DNA of 49,418 nt from assembly GCA_009773735.1 (NCBI GenBank), contig WSYG01000006.1:1-49418 (forward strand), written 5' to 3'. Position 1 is the first letter of the stretch. Each line of letters begins with the position of its first letter. This DNA comes from Erysipelotrichaceae bacterium. Lineage in GTDB: Bacteria; Bacillota_I; Bacilli_A; Erysipelotrichales; Erysipelotrichaceae. The notes beneath the pieces are model-generated. The model had not been told where the DNA came from. It made no database searches and saw nothing but the letters and a program-made list of their open reading frames with translations. Shown one piece after another: positions 948 through 23,840 of the stretch. The position numbers and the translations under genes were made by a program.

Positions 948-1003
948 TTGACGAAGAGCTAGTGCAGTTCTATAATATGAACATATGAACAACTATTCAT
1001 ATG
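948..1003 (+). promoter_or_regulatory. Promoter and metal-sensor operator of the cadC-cadA operon
   Basis: TTGACG (948-953) and TATAAT (971-976) are spaced 17 bases apart. Just after the -10 lies a perfect inverted repeat, CATATGAA (982-989), six bases, TTCATATG (996-1003), of the kind bound by ArsR/SmtB/CadC repressors. It covers the expected transcription start near 983. Autorepression relieved by Zn, Cd or Pb is the natural inference. Confidence 0.8.
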
Positions 1004-1018
1004 ATATGGAGACAAGTT

Positions 1019-1390
1019 ATGACACTTCGAGCTGAACTTATAAAATGCGACTGTAATGTGATACACCAAGATATCGTGGATCACGTCAAGACTAAAATGC
1101 CTGATCAAGATTCAATTCAGGATCTATCTCAGTTTTTTAAGATCTTCGGAGATTCAACACGTTTAAAAATCTTATCTGCTTTGTTTGAATCTGAAATGTG
1201 TGTTTGTGATATGGCAACTTTATTCAATATGACTCAGTCCTCTATTTCACATCAACTGAGTGTTTTAAAACAAGCACGCATGGTTAAATATCGCAAAGAT
1301 GGTAAAGTTGTTTACTATGCATTAGATGATCATCATATCCAACATATCTTCGATCAAGGATTGACCCATATCAAAGAAAATAGAAAGTAG
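1019..1390 (+). CDS. cadC: ArsR/SmtB-family metal-sensing repressor, CadC/ZiaR type
   Basis: A 123-residue winged-helix repressor. The start at 1019 is chosen because GGAG (1008-1011) fits it; an upstream in-frame ATG at 1001 lies inside the operator. Two metal-site signatures are visible. The alpha-3N type site combines the N-terminal CDC (C10, C12) with CVCD (C61, C63), as in CadC. The alpha-5 type site D104-x-H106, H117, E120 matches the D-x-H-x10-H-x2-E pattern of SmtB. The recognition helix is MTQSSISHQLSVLK. Having both sites suggests Cd/Pb as well as Zn sensing. It sits 4 bases upstream of the metal ATPase and is almost certainly its repressor. Confidence 0.88.
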   Translation: MTLRAELIKCDCNVIHQDIVDHVKTKMPDQDSIQDLSQFFKIFGDSTRLKILSALFESEMCVCDMATLFNMTQSSISHQLSVLKQARMVKYRKDGKVVYYALDDHHIQHIFDQGLTHIKENRK

Positions 1391-1394
1391 AACC

Positions 1395-3497
1395 ATGACT
1401 AAAAACACCACTACCGTCATTCTTGACGGTCTAGATTGCGCCAATTGCGCTTTAAAAATAGAAGAGGCTGTAAATAAAATCGAAGGGGTCTCACATGCGA
1501 CCTTGGATTTTACAACACAAAAACTAAAGGTTGAATATGTCAGTTCGTTACAAGAATCCAAAGTCTTGGAATTGGCTACAGCCGAAGCATTACGAATAGA
1601 ACCTGGTTTAAGTGTTCTTATTGATGGTCAGCCAAAAGTTGAAACAGACAAAAAATGGACACAAGAACATTTGGGTTGGATGAGTGGAACATTGATCTTT
1701 GGGATCGTTACACTTTTACAACTCAATGAAACATTAGAGTTGGTCCTTTATGGAGTAAGTTATCTTTTAATTGGTTATGACGTATTGGCGCGTGCACTTA
1801 GAAACACACTGAAGGGTCAGATGTTTGATGAGAACTTTTTAATGAGTATCGCTACGATTGGTGCTTTTGCGATAGGTGAATATCCTGAAGGTGTTGCGGT
1901 CATGCTGTTTTATAAGGTTGGTGAGCTTTTTCAAAATCATGCGGTAGATCATTCACGAAAATCGATCGCTGCTTTGATGGATATTCGACCAGATGTAGCC
2001 AATGTTGATCGTGGTCTAGGATTTGTCAAAGTATCTCCTTTAAGTGTTGAAGTTGGTGAAGTGGTTTTGATTAAAGTTGGTGAGAAAGTGCCATTAGATG
2101 GAATCATCATTGAAGGTAATTCACTTTTAGATACATCATCGATTACAGGTGAGTCATTGCTTAAAGAAGTTTCTGTTGGGCAGGAAATCTACTCAGGAAC
2201 CATCAATAAAACAGGTGTTTTAAAAGTAGAAGTCACAAAATCTTACAAAGATTCAACTGTCTCAAAAATTCTTGATTTGGTTGAAAATGCCAGCAGTAAA
2301 AAGGCTACAACTGAACAATTCATATCGAAATTTGCGAAAGTTTATACTCCAATCGTTGTGTTTGTTGCATTAGCGTTGGCTTTTATTCCGCCTTTGGTCA
2401 TCCCTGGTGCACAATTCCAAGATTGGCTCTATAGAGCTTTGGTTTTCCTTGTTGTGTCATGTCCTTGTGCATTGGTGATTTCCATTCCTTTAAGTTATTT
2501 TGGAGGAATAGGCGGCGCATCAAAACATGGTATCTTGATGAAAGGCGGGAATTATTTAGAGGCACTTAAGTCAATCGATACCCTTGTTTTTGATAAAACA
2601 GGAACTTTAACTAAGGGTCAGTTTACAGTAACAAAGATTGTATCATTATCAAGCAGTTCTCAAGATGACATCTTGAAGGCAGCAGCACTCGCAGAAAGCC
2701 ATTCAAATCATCCGATCGCTTTATCGATCATGAAAGCATACGGTAAGGTCAATCAAGACATCATCAAATCCGTTGAAGAAAACTCTGGTTTAGGACTAAA
2801 AGTAATCACACTTGATCAATCCATTTTAGTCGGCAATGAGAAGTTTATGAATCAAAACGGATTCTCGATAGAGTTTAGCGATCAAGATCAAACCACTGTT
2901 CATGTCGCAATCAATGGAGTTTATGCTGGATATCTTTTGATTGAAGATGAAATAAAAGGTGATGCGGTAGAAACCATTAGGCAACTCAAAAATTTGGGCA
3001 TCCCAAGAATCGTAATGTTGACTGGGGACAGTGATAAAGTAGGGAATAGGATTGCTCAACAACTTGGGATCGATGAAGTGTATACAGAACTAATGCCTCA
3101 AGATAAAGTTGAAAAGGTAGAGTGGCTTGAAAGTCATAAACAAAGCAAAGGTAAGTTGGTGTTTGTTGGAGATGGCATCAATGATGCCCCAGTATTGACC
3201 AGAGCTGATGTTGGGATCGCTATGGGAGCATTAGGATCAGATGCAGCGATTGAAGCAGCTGATGTGGTACTTATGACAGATGAACTTAGTAAAATCGTTT
3301 CAGCCATTCATTTGGCTCGTTATACACAAAAAATAGTCTGGCAGAACATTATCTTTGCCTTTGTTGTTAAAGGTGTGGTACTTGTGTTAGGCGCTGGTGG
3401 AGTTGCAACCATGTGGGAAGCTGTTTTTGCCGATGTTGGGGTAGCTTTGTTGGCTGTTTTTAATGCCCTTAGAATTCTTAATCGTAAATTTGACTAA
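1395..3497 (+). CDS. cadA: Zn/Cd/Pb-exporting P1B-type ATPase (CadA/ZntA)
   Basis: A 700-residue heavy-metal-exporting ATPase. One N-terminal HMA domain carries GLDCANC (C15, C18). The core holds the TGES actuator motif, the SCPC transmembrane metal motif, the DKTGTLT phosphorylation site, an HP motif (ESHSNHP) and the GDGINDAP hinge. The last membrane helices end FADVGVALLAVFNALRIL, where the Asp matches the Zn/Cd-type (P1B-2) transport site and not the Cu type. About eight membrane helices are expected. It follows cadC by 4 bases, so it is regulated through the operator at 982-1003. No terminator separates it from the deacetylase downstream. Zn versus Cd specificity cannot be fixed from sequence alone. 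Confidence 0.93.
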   Translation: MTKNTTTVILDGLDCANCALKIEEAVNKIEGVSHATLDFTTQKLKVEYVSSLQESKVLELATAEALRIEPGLSVLIDGQPKVETDKKWTQEHLGWMSGTLIFGIVTLLQLNETLELVLYGVSYLLIGYDVLARALRNTLKGQMFDENFLMSIATIGAFAIGEYPEGVAVMLFYKVGELFQNHAVDHSRKSIAALMDIRPDVANVDRGLGFVKVSPLSVEVGEVVLIKVGEKVPLDGIIIEGNSLLDTSSITGESLLKEVSVGQEIYSGTINKTGVLKVEVTKSYKDSTVSKILDLVENASSKKATTEQFISKFAKVYTPIVVFVALALAFIPPLVIPGAQFQDWLYRALVFLVVSCPCALVISIPLSYFGGIGGASKHGILMKGGNYLEALKSIDTLVFDKTGTLTKGQFTVTKIVSLSSSSQDDILKAAALAESHSNHPIALSIMKAYGKVNQDIIKSVEENSGLGLKVITLDQSILVGNEKFMNQNGFSIEFSDQDQTTVHVAINGVYAGYLLIEDEIKGDAVETIRQLKNLGIPRIVMLTGDSDKVGNRIAQQLGIDEVYTELMPQDKVEKVEWLESHKQSKGKLVFVGDGINDAPVLTRADVGIAMGALGSDAAIEAADVVLMTDELSKIVSAIHLARYTQKIVWQNIIFAFVVKGVVLVLGAGGVATMWEAVFADVGVALLAVFNALRILNRKFD

Positions 3498-6241: not shown

Positions 6242-7420
6242 ATGTTTAAAGTAAAAACACTCAATGAAATTGCCCCAGAAGGTTTAGAATTGTTATCCAA
6301 CAAATACGAAATCACTGAGTTGGAAGATGCTGATGGCATCTTAGTAAGAAGTGCCAATTTACTTGAGAAAGCTTTTGAACCAACGCTAAAAGCCATTGCT
6401 CGAGCAGGCGTAGGAGTCAACAATATCCCCACTGAACGCTGCGCAAAAGCCGGTATCGTGGTTTTTAACACACCAGGAGCCAATGCAAATGCCGTTAAAG
6501 AAATTGTTTTGGCAGCCTTGCTGATTTCCTCACGCGAAATTTATGAATCCATTGAATGGACAAAATCTTTGCTTGAAAAAGGTAAAGAAATTCCAAGGTT
6601 AGTTGAAGCTGGTAAGTCGAAATTTGGGGGTCCCGAACTCAAAGATAAAACCATTGGGGTCATAGGTTTAGGCGCCGTTGGTGTATTGGTTGCCAATGCA
6701 GCCCAAAGTTTAGGAATGAATGTTTTAGGGTATGACCCTTATATTTCAGTAGATAGTGCTTGGGGTTTATCGCGAAACATAAAAAGGTCCTTGTCTTATG
6801 ATGAAATCTTTATTGCTTCGGATTACCTAACTCTACATATTCCATATGTTGAAGAAACAAAAAACTTCATTAATGAAAAAGCCATCGCAAAAATGAAAGA
6901 AGGGGTCCGAATCTGCAATTTTGCCAGAGGGGAACTGGTAGATGATCAAGCCATGGCTTTAGCGCTTGAACGTGGAAAAGTAGCCAAATATGTAACAGAT
7001 TTTCCAAATGAACAGGTTTTACAGATGAAAAATGTGATTGCGATCCCTCATTTAGGGGCATCTACTCCAGAATCAGAAGTCAATTGTGCTATGATGGCAG
7101 TAAGAGAACTCACAGACTATTTAGAAAACGGAAACATTAAAAATTCTGTCAATTATCCAGATTGTGACATGGGTACATGCATCAGCAATGCACGTTTAGC
7201 CATCCATCACCAAAACATCCCAGGCATGGTTTCTGCAATCACAACGATTTTAGGTGAGCACAAGCTCAACATCGCGACGATGCAGAATATGTCTAAAAAA
7301 GGATGGGCATATACTATGGTAGATGTCGATGGCAAATTATCAGAACAAATCGTTGATAGTTTATCCAAGATCGAAGGCGTTGTTAAAGTGCGTGTGATCA
7401 AAGGTCTTGTGACCTCTTAA
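6242..7420 (+). CDS. serA: D-3-phosphoglycerate dehydrogenase
   Basis: A 392-residue NAD-dependent enzyme for the first step of serine synthesis. The Rossmann motif is VIGLGAVGVLVANAAQSLGM, with the catalytic region NFARGELVDDQA and the His/Glu segment PHLGASTPESE. A C-terminal ACT domain (NIPGMVSAITTILGEHKLNI) suggests feedback control, classically by serine. There is no large intervening domain, so it is the short SerA form, common beside serC in anaerobic Bacillota. SerB, needed to complete the path, was not recognised in the window; a HAD phosphatase at 30625 is of Cof type and not an obvious SerB. Confidence 0.95.
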   Translation: MFKVKTLNEIAPEGLELLSNKYEITELEDADGILVRSANLLEKAFEPTLKAIARAGVGVNNIPTERCAKAGIVVFNTPGANANAVKEIVLAALLISSREIYESIEWTKSLLEKGKEIPRLVEAGKSKFGGPELKDKTIGVIGLGAVGVLVANAAQSLGMNVLGYDPYISVDSAWGLSRNIKRSLSYDEIFIASDYLTLHIPYVEETKNFINEKAIAKMKEGVRICNFARGELVDDQAMALALERGKVAKYVTDFPNEQVLQMKNVIAIPHLGASTPESEVNCAMMAVRELTDYLENGNIKNSVNYPDCDMGTCISNARLAIHHQNIPGMVSAITTILGEHKLNIATMQNMSKKGWAYTMVDVDGKLSEQIVDSLSKIEGVVKVRVIKGLVTS

Positions 7421-7448
7421 CAAGTAATCTAGAAAGAAGGGTTTACTT

Positions 7449-8258
7449 ATGACATTTGAATGGTTTCTTGAATTAAATCCTGTTGTTCAAGCATTGCTTG
7501 GGACTTTGTTTACTTGGGGTGTGACTGCTTTGGGTGCAGCCATGGTTTTCTTCTTTAAGGAAATCAAACGCACGGTCTTAAATGCCATGTTGGGTTTTGC
7601 GGCAGGCGTTATGATCGCTGCTTCATTTTGGTCTTTATTGGCTCCAGCCATTGAAATGGCTGAAATGGAAGGCTTCCCTGGATGGTTACCTGCAGTGGTT
7701 GGATTTTTAAGCGGCGGTGCATTTTTGTGGGCAGTCGATAAACTGATGCCTCACTTACACATGTTTAATAAAAAACCCGAAGGACCCAAGACATCTTGGA
7801 ATAGATCAGTCTTATTGGTTTTGGCCATTACCTTACACAATATCCCTGAAGGATTAGCGGTTGGGGTTGCCTTTGGGGCAGCTGCTTCAGGCTATTCTGG
7901 ATCAACAGTCATGGGTGCGATTGCAGTTGCGATTGGGATTGGAATTCAGAATTTTCCTGAAGGAGCAGCTGTATCTGTACCTTTGCGTAGAGAAGGTCTA
8001 TCTCGATGGAAGTCATTTCTATATGGTCAAGCATCAGGCGTCGTAGAACCAATTGCTGGAGTCTTGGGTGCCTTGTTGGTCATCACCATGAAACCGATCT
8101 TGCCTTATGCACTGGCCTTTGCAGCAGGGGCAATGATCTATGTCGTCGTTGAAGAACTGATCCCTGAAGCGCAAAACGATGAAAAAACCGATGTGGCAAC
8201 CATCGGAGTTATGTTGGGTTTTGCGATCATGATGTTTCTGGATGTGGCTTTGGGTTAA
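7449..8258 (+). CDS. ZIP-family divalent metal transporter
   Basis: A 269-residue membrane protein of the ZIP (ZupT/GufA-like) family. TM4 carries [15 protein letters not shown] and TM5 carries [19 protein letters not shown], the paired metal-binding helices; EELIPEA lies near the end. It has about eight helices and a His-containing loop ([10 protein letters not shown]). The likely cargo is Zn(II), with Fe or Mn possible, imported into the cytoplasm. The SD is GAAGG near 7436. Its terminator (8268-8311) lies within the 3' coding part of the convergent DUF5131 gene. Confidence 0.9.
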
Positions 8259-12358: not shown

Positions 12359-13066
12359 ATGATAGATCCATCTTTACTTAAAAGCATACAGAATCAAGAG
12401 TTTGGAGAGCCAGAAATATTCGCTCAACGCGATGCTAGACTCGCTCAACAAACCCTCCACCACCACCCCGCAAACAATGCCCAAGACGCCTTTTTATTGA
12501 TGGCATGTGCCAATCTCATCAATGCCTATATTAAACAAGTCAAAGATCCTAAAGATGATTTTTCATACAGTTTTAAATTCAAGGTCTCTGAGTTGGCTGA
12601 AACGTGGTCGCTTCAACCTCTAGAAGGTGTCAAAGTCATCCGTTATAAAGATGTGACTTATATCGAAATCAATCCTTTACAGTTTAGTTTCCATCATCTA
12701 CAAGATGAACCAGCAGTGGCACTTTCTACCATCCAAGATCCTTGGGCGAAACTCAAACTTCAGCCTTTCGCTCAACGCATTTTATACAGCGCCATCGATC
12801 AATTCCCAGTTAGCAGTGAAACCTATGCCTTACAACTCAAAGCTCTATCCGACCATACGCGTTTACAAATTTTCCAGTTGGCTAAAGAAGGAGAAGTATG
12901 TGCCTGTGATCTAATCAAACAGTTTAATTTGACACAGCCTACCTTATCTTTCCATATGAAACAATTGGTTCAATGTGGATTGATGTTGGCTCGTAAAGAA
13001 GGTAAGTGGGTTAAGTATCGTTTAAATCTTTTCGCGGCCTATAAATTGAAGCAACATCTTCAGTAA
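12359..13066 (+). CDS. ArsR-family regulator with a long unknown N-terminal domain
   Basis: A 235-residue protein, about twice the usual ArsR length. Residues 155-235 are a standard ArsR winged helix: LKALSDHTRLQIFQLAKEGE, then CAC (C181, C183), the As/Sb-type thiol site, and helix LTQPTLSFHMKQL. Residues 1-150 match no family I recognise; they include a His cluster (HHH, 34-36) and look globular and soluble, so they may be a sensor or dimer domain. Neighbours are a divergent membrane hydrolase and, 109 bases downstream, a thioredoxin-like disulfide protein often found in arsenic-type clusters. No arsenite permease is present. Confidence 0.8.
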   Translation: MIDPSLLKSIQNQEFGEPEIFAQRDARLAQQTLHHHPANNAQDAFLLMACANLINAYIKQVKDPKDDFSYSFKFKVSELAETWSLQPLEGVKVIRYKDVTYIEINPLQFSFHHLQDEPAVALSTIQDPWAKLKLQPFAQRILYSAIDQFPVSSETYALQLKALSDHTRLQIFQLAKEGEVCACDLIKQFNLTQPTLSFHMKQLVQCGLMLARKEGKWVKYRLNLFAAYKLKQHLQ

Positions 13067-13103
13067 TCATCAAGGCTTGTATTTTTGTTTAAATGGTTTA
13101 TCA

Positions 13104-13121
13104 TATAGACGGTTATCTATA
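13104..13121. promoter_or_regulatory. Inverted repeat, candidate ArsR operator
   Basis: TATAGA (13104-13109), six bases, TCTATA (13116-13121) forms a perfect dyad in the gap between the ArsR-like gene and the disulfide protein. Size and spacing resemble ArsR-family sites, including the N6 spacing seen at 982-1003. Binding is inferred only. Confidence 0.4.
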
Positions 13122-13174
13122 CAAAATGTTTAGATGATTCAATGCCACCACGGCAGCTTGATCTAGGAGGAATA

Positions 13175-13447
13175 ATGATCATAAAAATACTTGGTATCGG
13201 TTGTTCGAATTGTATCAGACTTGAAGAAAACACACGTACTGCACTTAAAAACCTTGGCTTAACTGCTGAAATCGTTAAAGTAAAAGATATGGTGGATATA
13301 GCAACCTATGGAATCATGAGGACACCTGGCTTGGTCATCGATGAAAAAGTCGTGTCTTATGGAAAAGTGCTGAATGTCCAAGAAGTCATGGCACTATTAA
13401 ATAAGCCTGGCCAAATCAAACTTGAATCTAATCGAAGTTTGTTATAA
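13175..13447 (+). CDS. Thioredoxin-like redox-active disulfide protein (MTH895/TM0996 family)
   Basis: A 90-residue thioredoxin/glutaredoxin-fold protein with GIGCSNC near the N-terminus (CxxC), a GIMRTPGLVID cis-Pro segment and a C-terminal VQEVMALL helix. The start at 13175 follows an excellent AGGAGG SD; an ATG at 13142 upstream of that SD is ignored. Family members usually accompany ArsR regulators and DUF318 (UPF0718) permeases and may reduce thiol-bound metalloids or disulfides. Here the permease is absent and the partner is the long ArsR-like regulator. A dyad at 13104-13121 could bring both under one control. Confidence 0.85.
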   Translation: MIIKILGIGCSNCIRLEENTRTALKNLGLTAEIVKVKDMVDIATYGIMRTPGLVIDEKVVSYGKVLNVQEVMALLNKPGQIKLESNRSLL

Positions 13448-21267: not shown

Positions 21268-22386
21268 ATGATCTATCTCGACTATAGTGCCACAACCCCC
21301 ATTGATCCTCGGGTCACTGAAAAGTGGGTAAGTGTTGAAACCAGCTTTTATGCCAATGCCAACAGCGACCATATTTTGGGTCGTGAAAGCAAGCGTAACA
21401 ATGATGAATCGATCCGTATCATCGCGGATTATTTTAAGGTATTACCTAAAGAAGTCATCATCATGTCTTCAGCAGTTGAAGCCAACAACACGGCCATAAA
21501 AGGACTTGCAGAGAAGTTTCCGCAAAAAACACACATCATCTCATCGGCGTTGGAACACGCTTCTGTGATAGGGGCATTGAGTTTCTTGGACCAAAGAGAT
21601 TATGAGATTGAAACTTTAGGTTTAGATGATGAAGGTCGTTATGATTTAGATCAACTTAATAAAATGATCCGCGAAGATACACTATTGGTTACTTTGATCG
21701 GTGTCGATTCTGAAACTGGCATCAGACAACCCATTGAAGAAGCAGGGAAGCTTTGTCATAGGCATCACGTGTTCTTTCATTCAGATATTACGCAACTTGT
21801 TGGGAAAGGACATTTCGATCTCACCGACATCGATATGGCCAGCGCTTCAGCCCATAAAGTTTATGGACCTAAAGGGGTAGCCGTACTCATCAAGAAAGCA
21901 TCTGTGCCTTTGATTCCATTACTTCATGGCGGACATAGTTTTACCCCATATCGATCATCGACTCCTCAAAATGGATTGGTTGCAGCCTTTGCGGAAACTC
22001 TACGATTATCTTCACTTGAATTTGATGATCGTTTCATCAAAGTCGAGAAGTTAAATGTTTATCTCAGAAGTAAACTTGAAGTATTTCCAGAGATCCATAT
22101 CAATTCGAATCAACATTCGATCCCGCATCTTTTCAACATCAGTATCCAAGGATCACGACCTGAAGAAGGTCTGGCATATTTTTCTGATCACGGGCTTTGT
22201 TTTTCATCCAAGAGCGCATGCAGCGGTCAAGACGAGTTTTCAGCCTCAGTCTATGCGATTACCAGAGACAAAGCATTGGCCTCATCATCGTATCGTATCA
22301 GTCTCTCACACTTAACCACTGTGGAAGAATTAGACAGTTTGATCAAGGTCATGAAAACCTATTGTAGTAAACTATGCGAAAAATAG
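21268..22386 (+). CDS. Cysteine desulfurase-like class V PLP enzyme (NifS/IscS group)
   Basis: A 372-residue PLP enzyme beginning IYLDYSATTPIDPRV, as in NifS/IscS. PLP Lys is K197 (SAHKVYGPKG) and the persulfide Cys is C318 (SKSACSG). Motifs such as SSAVEANNTAIKG (usual ATEANN/SGTEANN) and EHASVIGALSFL deviate slightly from housekeeping IscS. No iscU/sufU or thiI lies beside it. Instead the stop overlaps a thioredoxin-like gene and then a thioredoxin-CcdA fusion, suggesting a dedicated sulfur or redox pathway. There is no SD, and a TAAAAT box lies only 11 bases upstream of the ATG. Confidence 0.85.
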   Translation: MIYLDYSATTPIDPRVTEKWVSVETSFYANANSDHILGRESKRNNDESIRIIADYFKVLPKEVIIMSSAVEANNTAIKGLAEKFPQKTHIISSALEHASVIGALSFLDQRDYEIETLGLDDEGRYDLDQLNKMIREDTLLVTLIGVDSETGIRQPIEEAGKLCHRHHVFFHSDITQLVGKGHFDLTDIDMASASAHKVYGPKGVAVLIKKASVPLIPLLHGGHSFTPYRSSTPQNGLVAAFAETLRLSSLEFDDRFIKVEKLNVYLRSKLEVFPEIHINSNQHSIPHLFNISIQGSRPEEGLAYFSDHGLCFSSKSACSGQDEFSASVYAITRDKALASSSYRISLSHLTTVEELDSLIKVMKTYCSKLCEK

Positions 22387-22634
22387 TCATCGTGTCGGCA
22401 GTATGGTGCCATGCTTGTCTCACCATGCGCAAAAGAATCAAAGCACTTAAAGAAAAATATCCTGAGTGGATCTGGGTCGACCTCGACTTGGATTTAGATG
22501 ATGATGTCGTAGACCCTTTAAAAGTCGGGAAATTGATTCCTGTCTTTATTATTTATGAAAACGACGTTGAAGTGAAGAGAATCGCTGGCGAAATGAGCCA
22601 AGACGCGTTAGAAAGCGAACTAAACTATGTTTAA
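22374..22634 (+). CDS. Small thioredoxin-like protein
   Basis: An 86-residue thioredoxin-fold protein with the active site AVWCHAC (C12, C15) near the N-terminus and a cis-Pro segment KLIPVFIIYEN. It has no signal peptide, so it is cytoplasmic, and it is shorter than a standard Trx. It overlaps the desulfurase-like gene by 13 bases and the next gene by 8. The context suggests it delivers electrons to, or receives them from, the membrane protein that follows, or reduces the desulfurase persulfide (inference). Confidence 0.85.
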   Translation: MRKIVIVSAVWCHACLTMRKRIKALKEKYPEWIWVDLDLDLDDDVVDPLKVGKLIPVFIIYENDVEVKRIAGEMSQDALESELNYV

Positions 22635-23811
22635 AAAAACCCTTGTGGTTTTAGCGATATTATCAGCCTTATTTTCAATGATGATCACGACTAAAGCCTA
22701 TGATAAGACCCATATTTATTATTTTTATGCGGAAGGTTGTATTACCTGTGCTGCTGAAGATAAGTACTTGATTGAACTAGAAGCCAAAGATCCAAACATC
22801 GTGATCCACAAATATGAGATCGCCTTTGATAAAGAAAATCAAGCATTGGTCAAACAACTCGATGAAGTCCTCAACATCAAGATCAAATCGACCCCAACAT
22901 TGGTCATCGGTCGTAAAACCATTGTTGGTTTTTCTAAGAATTCGACAGAATCGAATATTGAAAATTCGATTGAATTCTTCCGTAAAAACAATGTTCGAGA
23001 TGTGATAGGTGAACTATTGGGTTTTGTTGCGCCTGGGGAAGGATTTGATATCGACCCTACTGAAGGCACGATCAAATTGCCATTCTTTGGAGAAGTCAAT
23101 GCCAAAACCATATCCTTGCCTTTATTGGCTATTGTTCTTGGAACCTTAGATGGTTTTAATCCATGTGCGATGTGGGTATTGTTGCTTTTGATCAGTATGC
23201 TGTTTCATCTTGAACAGACCTGGAAGAAATGGTTCTTAGGGGGTCTTTTCTTAGCGACAACAGCCGTCATGTATTTTATGTTCATGTTGACTTGGCTCAA
23301 CATTACCTTGCTCTTTGGAACCATTACTTATATTCGTTTATTGATCGCAGCCATTGCGTTGATAGGTGGAGTCGTCAATATAAGGACTTACCTAAAAACA
23401 AAGCCCGGTTGTGAAGTCATCGATGATCGTAAACGTAAGAAAATATCAATACGTATCAAACAGATCTTTGCCCAACCAGTCTTGGTTTTGGCTTCTATTG
23501 GGGTCGTTGTTTTGGCCATCAGTGTCAATTTGGTTGAACTGATTTGTTCTGCTGGATTACCGGTTATTTATACCCAAGTATTATCAATCCAAAATCTAAG
23601 CGGGATCCAATATATCCTATATCTTCTTTTATACTTGCTATTCTTTATGGTGGATGATATCATCATTTTCGTCATCGCAATGAAGACAGCTCAACTTACA
23701 GGCATCTCTACGAAGTATTCTCGTAATGCTCACTTAATCGGGGGAATCCTGATGATTATTCTAGGCATTATGATGATTTTTAGACCAGAGTGGTTGATGC
23801 TAAAATTCTAG
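22627..23811 (+). CDS. Exported thioredoxin domain fused to a CcdA/DsbD-like membrane transporter
   Basis: A 394-residue two-part protein. A signal-like helix (LVVLAILSALFSMMITTKA) leads to an extracytoplasmic thioredoxin-like domain with GCITC (C38, C41) and KSTPTLVIG. From about residue 160 it has six or so membrane helices with C180 in GFNPCAMWVLL and C307 in ELICSAGLP, placed like the paired intramembrane Cys of CcdA/DsbD. The fused order (Trx first, membrane domain second) differs from classic DsbD. It should pass electrons from cytoplasmic thioredoxin to outside disulfides. It is co-transcribed with the small thioredoxin and the desulfurase-like enzyme. Confidence 0.83.
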   Translation: MFKKTLVVLAILSALFSMMITTKAYDKTHIYYFYAEGCITCAAEDKYLIELEAKDPNIVIHKYEIAFDKENQALVKQLDEVLNIKIKSTPTLVIGRKTIVGFSKNSTESNIENSIEFFRKNNVRDVIGELLGFVAPGEGFDIDPTEGTIKLPFFGEVNAKTISLPLLAIVLGTLDGFNPCAMWVLLLLISMLFHLEQTWKKWFLGGLFLATTAVMYFMFMLTWLNITLLFGTITYIRLLIAAIALIGGVVNIRTYLKTKPGCEVIDDRKRKKISIRIKQIFAQPVLVLASIGVVVLAISVNLVELICSAGLPVIYTQVLSIQNLSGIQYILYLLLYLLFFMVDDIIIFVIAMKTAQLTGISTKYSRNAHLIGGILMIILGIMMIFRPEWLMLKF

Positions 23812-23812
23812 G

Positions 23813-23840
23813 TTGTTATGCGTGAAAATAAGTCTATAAT
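23813..23840 (+). promoter_or_regulatory. Promoter of the polyamine operon
   Basis: TTGTTA (23813-23818), spacer 16, TATAAT (23835-23840). The start near 23847 gives a 21-base leader with an AAAGGTGA SD. It separates speA from the redox operon; no terminator was seen between them. Confidence 0.65.

Follow-up and report, generated by a model that had tools for sequence, protein, structure and literature searches.

A conserved gene module of the class Bacilli comprising a NifS/IscS-like desulfurase, a small thioredoxin and a CcdA-like membrane protein suggests a link between cysteine-sulfur release and transmembrane thiol traffic

Three overlapping genes encoding a NifS/IscS-like desulfurase, a small thioredoxin (Trx86) and a CcdA-like membrane protein with a thioredoxin domain of its own (TrxCcdA) were found to represent a gene module that is conserved across the class Bacilli. 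The analysis suggests a coupling of cysteine-sulfur release to the movement of thiols across the membrane. The trio is located on a stretch of 49,418 nucleotides (referred to as the window), representing contig C60 of a genome of 1.94 Mb (82 contigs, 99% complete), and the nearest named matches of the window include Erysipelotrichaceae/Firmicutes MAGs. All three open reading frames were confirmed at the positions given below. Neighbouring frames overlap by 13 nt (desulfurase/Trx86) and 8 nt (Trx86/TrxCcdA), in agreement with a preliminary description of this DNA, which had placed three genes with these overlaps at 21268–23811. The following features were considered:

21268..22386, + strand: NifS/IscS-like class-V desulfurase, 372 aa, assigned by Pfam, IscS alignment, tree and residue conservation; PLP Lys197; His97, Asp173, Gln176, Arg343; persulfide Cys318; clade-specific Ser148 (IscS Asn155)
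21709..21711, + strand: codon of Ser148, invariant in 50/50 trio desulfurases
22374..22634, + strand: Trx86, small cytosolic thioredoxin, 86 aa; WCHAC motif (C12, C15) and cis-Pro56; signal peptide not seen
22627..23811, + strand: TrxCcdA, 394 aa; signal/anchor helix, predicted outside thioredoxin domain (C38, C41), six-helix CcdA-like membrane part (C180, C307), predicted cytosolic loop with C262
23410..23412, + strand: codon of C262, an invariant cysteine (87/87) in a positively charged loop joining two three-helix halves (KPGCEVIDDRKRKK)
23813..23840, + strand: promoter-like site TTGTTA-16-TATAAT (10/12), 3' of the trio and 5' of an Orn/Lys/Arg decarboxylase gene

Conservation was evaluated for 87 loci encoding the membrane protein (80 from a genome-contig collection, six from relatives, and the window; a few are near-duplicates). 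The small thioredoxin gene was found in 70 of these loci, and the order desulfurase, small thioredoxin, TrxCcdA in 53. Hence, the trio recurs in other genomes, and the lack of conservation in relatives considered in the preliminary description was not found. Loci with an upstream desulfurase gene originate from records whose titles name Bacilli, Bacillota, Mollicutes or similar groups; at the Patescibacteria loci, no desulfurase gene occupies this position. The thioredoxin and TrxCcdA genes are separated by at most 30 nt at all 70 loci and overlap at 46 of them, and the gap between the desulfurase and thioredoxin genes is likewise at most 30 nt in 44/51 cases, the other seven showing a gene-sized gap. 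Thus, the trio represents a conserved unit of tightly overlapping genes. Their flanks mostly differ (35 distinct upstream neighbours at 45 loci, 34 distinct downstream neighbours at 49 loci), and conservation amid such varied neighbourhoods rules out a local accident. Where loci with a gene-sized gap were read, i.e., in some MAGs, a dCMP-deaminase-like or pentapeptide-repeat-like gene is tightly packed between the desulfurase and thioredoxin genes (L041:5248-5736, L058, L091, L096; L063:5036-5671, L067, L070, L071).

Furthermore, an even sample of 198 Bacilli genomes was screened, with the window's own genome left out of the count. A clear match to the membrane protein was obtained in 25 genomes, and the desulfurase gene adjoins in 20 of these (counted from the search tables). 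Among the exceptions, three genomes (G178, G277, G316) encode thioredoxin–membrane protein pairs without a desulfurase and two have the pieces split. In the latter, G255 (L197:437-3656) and G241 (L210:297-3558), the desulfurase/thioredoxin overlap is kept and is followed by CysE-like (serine-acetyltransferase-like) and cysteine-synthase genes, the membrane-protein gene being located elsewhere in the genome. Trx–TrxCcdA pairs without an adjacent desulfurase gene were observed in Patescibacteria and some Bacilli (L047, L057, L065, L076, L080, L105, L191, L193, L195). DUF134-type genes are often found in the vicinity of the thioredoxin–membrane protein pairs of Patescibacteria (and of G046), in some cases together with a DUF5320-like gene (L047, L051, L054, L076-L078, L086, L087, L092, L100, L109, L120), and at L120 an Mrp-type ATPase gene is located 3' of the pair.

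A second, reversed arrangement (type II, as opposed to the type I trio) was detected in other Bacilli via weak membrane-protein matches adjoining the highest-scoring NifS genes. At no fewer than 19 loci, i.e., at least L154, L155, L156, L157, L159, L160, L162-L166, L168-L174 and L181, genes for a Trx-CcdA-like membrane protein, a single-Cys protein of ~96 aa and a NifS enzyme follow each other in this order. The small protein possesses one invariant cysteine (19/19) within the motif D-x-x-P-C-[IV]-I-H (DDDPCIIH), and no match to it was obtained in Pfam, NCBIfam or PDB, either by sequence or by fold. A small thiol protein gene thus occupies the middle position in both arrangements. The type II membrane proteins are devoid of an equivalent of C262, and the type II NifS enzymes belong to a different clade from the trio desulfurase in a tree of 93 desulfurases. 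Since the type II desulfurase is of a different lineage, either the coupling originated on two or more occasions or one desulfurase was exchanged for another, and both scenarios point to function. The type II cluster of L154 is faced by a DUF134 gene and by a FeMo-cofactor (NifX-like) gene (L154:695-1489).

The desulfurase encoded by the first gene matched Pfam Aminotran_5 (E 4e-52), and E. coli IscS was its best sequence match among solved structures. In accordance with its initial labelling as a NifS-type PLP enzyme featuring K197 and C318, both residues correspond to IscS K206 and C328 in the alignment and do not vary among the trio enzymes (C318 conserved in 53/53). H97, D173, Q176 and R343 are likewise invariant, and hence the PLP lysine, the catalytic histidine, the Asp/Gln residues and the substrate arginine of group I enzymes are present; the loop bearing C318 is 1–2 residues shorter than in IscS. 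In the above-mentioned tree (quick search without bootstrap, SH-aLRT support), the 50 trio enzymes included formed a single clade (SH-aLRT 99) with ThiI-linked desulfurases as sister group (joint support 96), and SufS, the IscS/NifS side and type II NifS were placed apart. The trio enzyme therefore falls outside housekeeping IscS, the grouping that the preliminary description had named as an alternative, and also outside SufS. The trio enzymes thus represent a separate clade with intact PLP and persulfide residues; their cysteine desulfurase activity is putative. Among close relatives from the other family of the order, two desulfurase genes (L199:2613-4572, L201:2429-4379) are followed by a gene for a PP-loop (ATP_bind_3) protein, TtcA-like by eye.

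Scores of the trio enzyme were far below the NCBIfam cut-offs for IscS and NifS (238 vs. 643 and 248 vs. 531, respectively). Its second-best NCBIfam match was TIGR03235 DndA (238.6 bits; family cut-off 480); the enzyme fold is shared with the DndA/SspA desulfurases of DNA phosphorothioation, but no Dnd or Ssp genes were seen alongside the trio. Compared with the group I desulfurases IscS, NifS and B. subtilis NifZ/YrvO, the PLP Lys, His, Asp, Gln, Arg and loop Cys are common to all, whereas the trio enzyme differs in its own clade, in Ser148 replacing Asn155 and in having no IscU/NifU, ThiI or MnmA gene alongside. Assignment to the ThiI-linked (NifZ-type) desulfurases was rejected, the trio enzyme being sister to and not within that clade and thiI having its own desulfurase.

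The second gene product matched PF00085 Thioredoxin with 32.7 bits (cut-off 23.5), and its C12 and C15 are invariant in 70/70 sequences, which substantiates the earlier view of a cytoplasmic thioredoxin of 86 residues with this cysteine pair. W11 and P56 are invariant as well, so that the thioredoxin profile, the WCxxC motif and the cis-proline are all present. With 28.7 bits, Trx86 scores below the TIGR01068 equivalog cut-off of 96.8 and is therefore a divergent thioredoxin.

For TrxCcdA, Pfam provided only a weak Thioredoxin_2 match. Five cysteines, namely C38, C41, C180, C262 and C307, are invariant in 87/87 sequences, of which C262 is missing from the preliminary description. An AlphaFold2 model (pLDDT 81) features a signal/anchor helix, a thioredoxin domain (residues 25–122; VIA Z 10.6 to 1v98) and helices read as six membrane spans. 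The model and this structural match agree with the outside thioredoxin domain bearing C38 and C41 that had been proposed before. C180 and C307 are placed in broken helices of the six-helix membrane domain, as in CcdA/DsbD relays. As the thioredoxin domain should be outside, and according to the positive-inside rule, C262 and its KRKK loop are expected to face the cytosol, with helix boundaries taken from the model. By sequence and model, the protein thus combines a thioredoxin domain on the outside with two cysteines within the membrane and an invariant loop cysteine expected on the cytosolic side.

The relationship to CcdA was evaluated by profile comparison. No Pfam DsbD_TM match was listed for any of the 39 aligned membrane-protein members, and DsbD_2 matched weakly (E 0.017) in two of the 39. 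The direct profile match between the trio membrane part and E. coli DsbD was not significant, and a fold search for the membrane part was uninformative because the thioredoxin domain filled the match lists. Type I and type II membrane proteins matched each other over their full length (hhalign, E 1.8e-37) and in the membrane part (E 5e-18), and type II matched E. coli DsbD (E 3e-5), the alignment spanning 209 columns and pairing both cysteines. The initial CcdA-like label is thus upheld as regards the invariant C180 and C307, but holds only indirectly, via the type II proteins; TrxCcdA is termed CcdA-like here rather than a CcdA.

CcdA/DsbD relays move electrons, and desulfurases feed cytosolic acceptors. 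The most likely reading, offered tentatively, is that the trio is dedicated to cysteine sulfur and is coupled to a transmembrane thiol relay of the CcdA type, both sides sharing Trx86 as partner. With cysteine or a close analogue as substrate, Cys318 of the desulfurase would acquire a persulfide. Trx86 would then take over this sulfur, releasing sulfide or holding the sulfur briefly, and would exchange thiols with C262 and subsequently with C180/C307. Upon reaching C38/C41 outside, the relay would enable the reduction or sulfuration of extracytoplasmic thiol proteins. As net effect, one co-expressed set would both release cysteine sulfur in the cell and supply thiols outside. A net outward flow of reducing equivalents, the sulfide being set free inside, appears somewhat more likely than export of sulfur atoms. 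The coupling had already been envisaged in the preliminary description and is now supported by gene order, i.e., by the trio in varied contexts and by the reversed arrangement; its direction and cargo (disulfide reduction or sulfur export) are what we infer.

A precedent for the proposed Trx86 step is found in B. subtilis, where SufS generates a persulfide on SufU that is reduced by the thioredoxin system (PMC8300815). In both cases a thioredoxin acts, or is proposed to act, on a desulfurase-derived persulfide; the B. subtilis system differs in possessing the scaffold SufU and no membrane relay. Compared with CcdA/DsbD relays operating with ResA, TlpA or a DsbD-gamma-type outside thioredoxin, the trio shares the outside thioredoxin domain, the cytosolic thioredoxin partner and a membrane part of six helices, in which two cysteines are located in broken helices (motifs NPCA and ELICSAGLP), and relay activity is predicted. 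In contrast to these relays, the thioredoxin domain of TrxCcdA is N-terminal in the same chain, the invariant loop cysteine C262 is additional, Pfam DsbD_TM gives no match, and a dedicated cysteine desulfurase is encoded in the operon.

The strongest competing explanation regards Trx86 and TrxCcdA as an ordinary reductant of outside thiols, the desulfurase being merely co-expressed and serving a separate purpose in the cytosol, e.g., the thiolation of tRNA or the catabolism of cysteine; it is considered rather unlikely. It agrees with the pairs standing alone in Patescibacteria and some Bacilli, with the nearest desulfurase relatives being ThiI-linked or followed by the PP-loop protein, and with the association of NifS and Trx with CysE/CysK in two genomes. 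The genome of the window encodes a paralog of the membrane protein (75% identical; L113:4849-9530, contig C18 of G000) with no desulfurase alongside; together with the Patescibacteria pairs, it shows that linkage to a desulfurase gene is not a constant feature of the membrane protein. This paralog is located between a large P-type-ATPase-like (metal-ATPase-like) gene accompanied by an ArsR-type gene and a gene for a Trx-like lipoprotein, with serine-recombinase-like genes nearby. The desulfurase-less pairs and the paralog next to the metal-ATPase-like gene indicate that the basic job of the relay is independent of the desulfurase. However, linkage in two desulfurase lineages, in opposite gene order and tight across varied neighbourhoods, is hard to explain as incidental.

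Elsewhere in the genome, SufC-SufD-SufS-SufU-SufB genes were found at contig C58, a desulfurase gene overlapping thiI at contig C76, and an MnmA gene at a further locus without a desulfurase gene beside it in the stretch read. Scaffold, ThiI and MnmA genes are consequently lacking in the window, as stated in the preliminary description, but present in the genome. Against mere co-expression, ThiI is accompanied by its own desulfurase in the trio-bearing genomes examined, and MnmA is also present in trio-less genomes. Due to the SufCDSUB genes and the desulfurase–ThiI pair elsewhere, and MnmA also in trio-less relatives, a housekeeping role was rejected as main explanation. Likewise, housekeeping IscS, NifS or SufS was dismissed as the identity of the enzyme, given its separate clade, the absence of an adjacent scaffold gene (IscU, NifU, SufU) and SufS-SufU elsewhere in the genome.

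Less probable still is a transmembrane sulfur relay, in which sulfane sulfur would pass from Cys318 via Trx86, C262 and C180/C307 to C38/C41 outside and be exported as protein persulfide. Here, the type II protein replacing Trx86 is instructive, as its single cysteine (19/19) is more in keeping with a carrier of persulfide than with a dithiol reductant; the lone invariant C262 could serve as docking point, and the gene for the small thiol protein is the central one in either arrangement. The CxxC motif of Trx86, however, is normal, and such motifs tend to resolve persulfides to sulfide; in addition, type II membrane proteins lack a C262 equivalent, and pairs without desulfurase exist. To our knowledge, no CcdA/DsbD protein has been reported to carry a persulfide, and none was found in the titles and abstracts of the open-access literature searched, which likewise weighs against this relay. 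The single-Cys protein thus favours sulfur carriage, whereas the desulfurase-less pairs and the paralog favour a basic electron or thiol role. It is equally improbable that a sulfur relay arose separately in Bacilli in two forms, one using the dithiol Trx86 and the other the single-Cys DDDPC protein.

A further explanation, considered very unlikely, is that the enzyme has the desulfurase fold but acts as a lyase on a substrate other than cysteine (for example, cystine, homocysteine, cysteine sulfinate or selenocysteine), which the reductant system reduces or delivers. It is prompted by Ser148, which was missed in the preliminary description and occupies the position of IscS Asn155 in 50/50 trio enzymes, so that the carboxylate-recognising asparagine is absent. 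Asparagine is found at this position in ThiI-linked (10/10), type II (19/19) and SufS (4/4) enzymes and in E. coli IscS. In the DndA structure paper, this residue (DndA Asn150) was proposed to recognise the substrate carboxylate and was called stringently conserved in desulfurases and selenocysteine lyases (PMC3343029). Ser224 in place of Gln/His is a second clade-wide change. Since Ser148 replaces the presumed substrate-carboxylate asparagine, L-cysteine is not certain as substrate, and substrate or rate of the trio desulfurase may differ from the norm. Nevertheless, the PLP lysine, His97, Asp173, Gln176, Arg343 and Cys318 are all kept, and a Parcubacteria desulfurase located downstream of TrxCcdA (L054, match 6982-8133) also has serine at the asparagine position.

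Regarding the preferred reading of a cysteine-sulfur module coupled to a thiol relay, each component belongs to a known kind. Neither their combination nor the loop cysteine, the clade with Ser148 or the reversed form was encountered in the family libraries and open-access papers searched. In line with the preliminary description, no named system of this composition was found in these libraries and papers. If the reading is true, a widely conserved operon joining desulfurase and relay, present in two forms with desulfurases of different lineages, would imply that the release of cysteine sulfur is linked by cells to thiol chemistry at their surface. It would also assign a function to an unrecognised membrane family, to an unassigned clade of desulfurases in which an active-site residue is altered, and to a single-Cys protein family that has no name.

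Membership of the trio in a downstream polyamine operon is unsupported, since the decarboxylase gene adjoins the trio only in a few close relatives and the promoter-like site lies between them, a weak indication. This site (23813..23840) possibly marks the end of the module, although sites of this type are no more numerous than expected by chance. Elsewhere in the window, an ArsR-like regulator gene is followed by a gene for a redox-active-disulfide-type protein of 101 aa with a CSNC motif (12359-13447), and a second ArsR-like gene is accompanied by a heavy-metal-ATPase-like gene (1001-3497).
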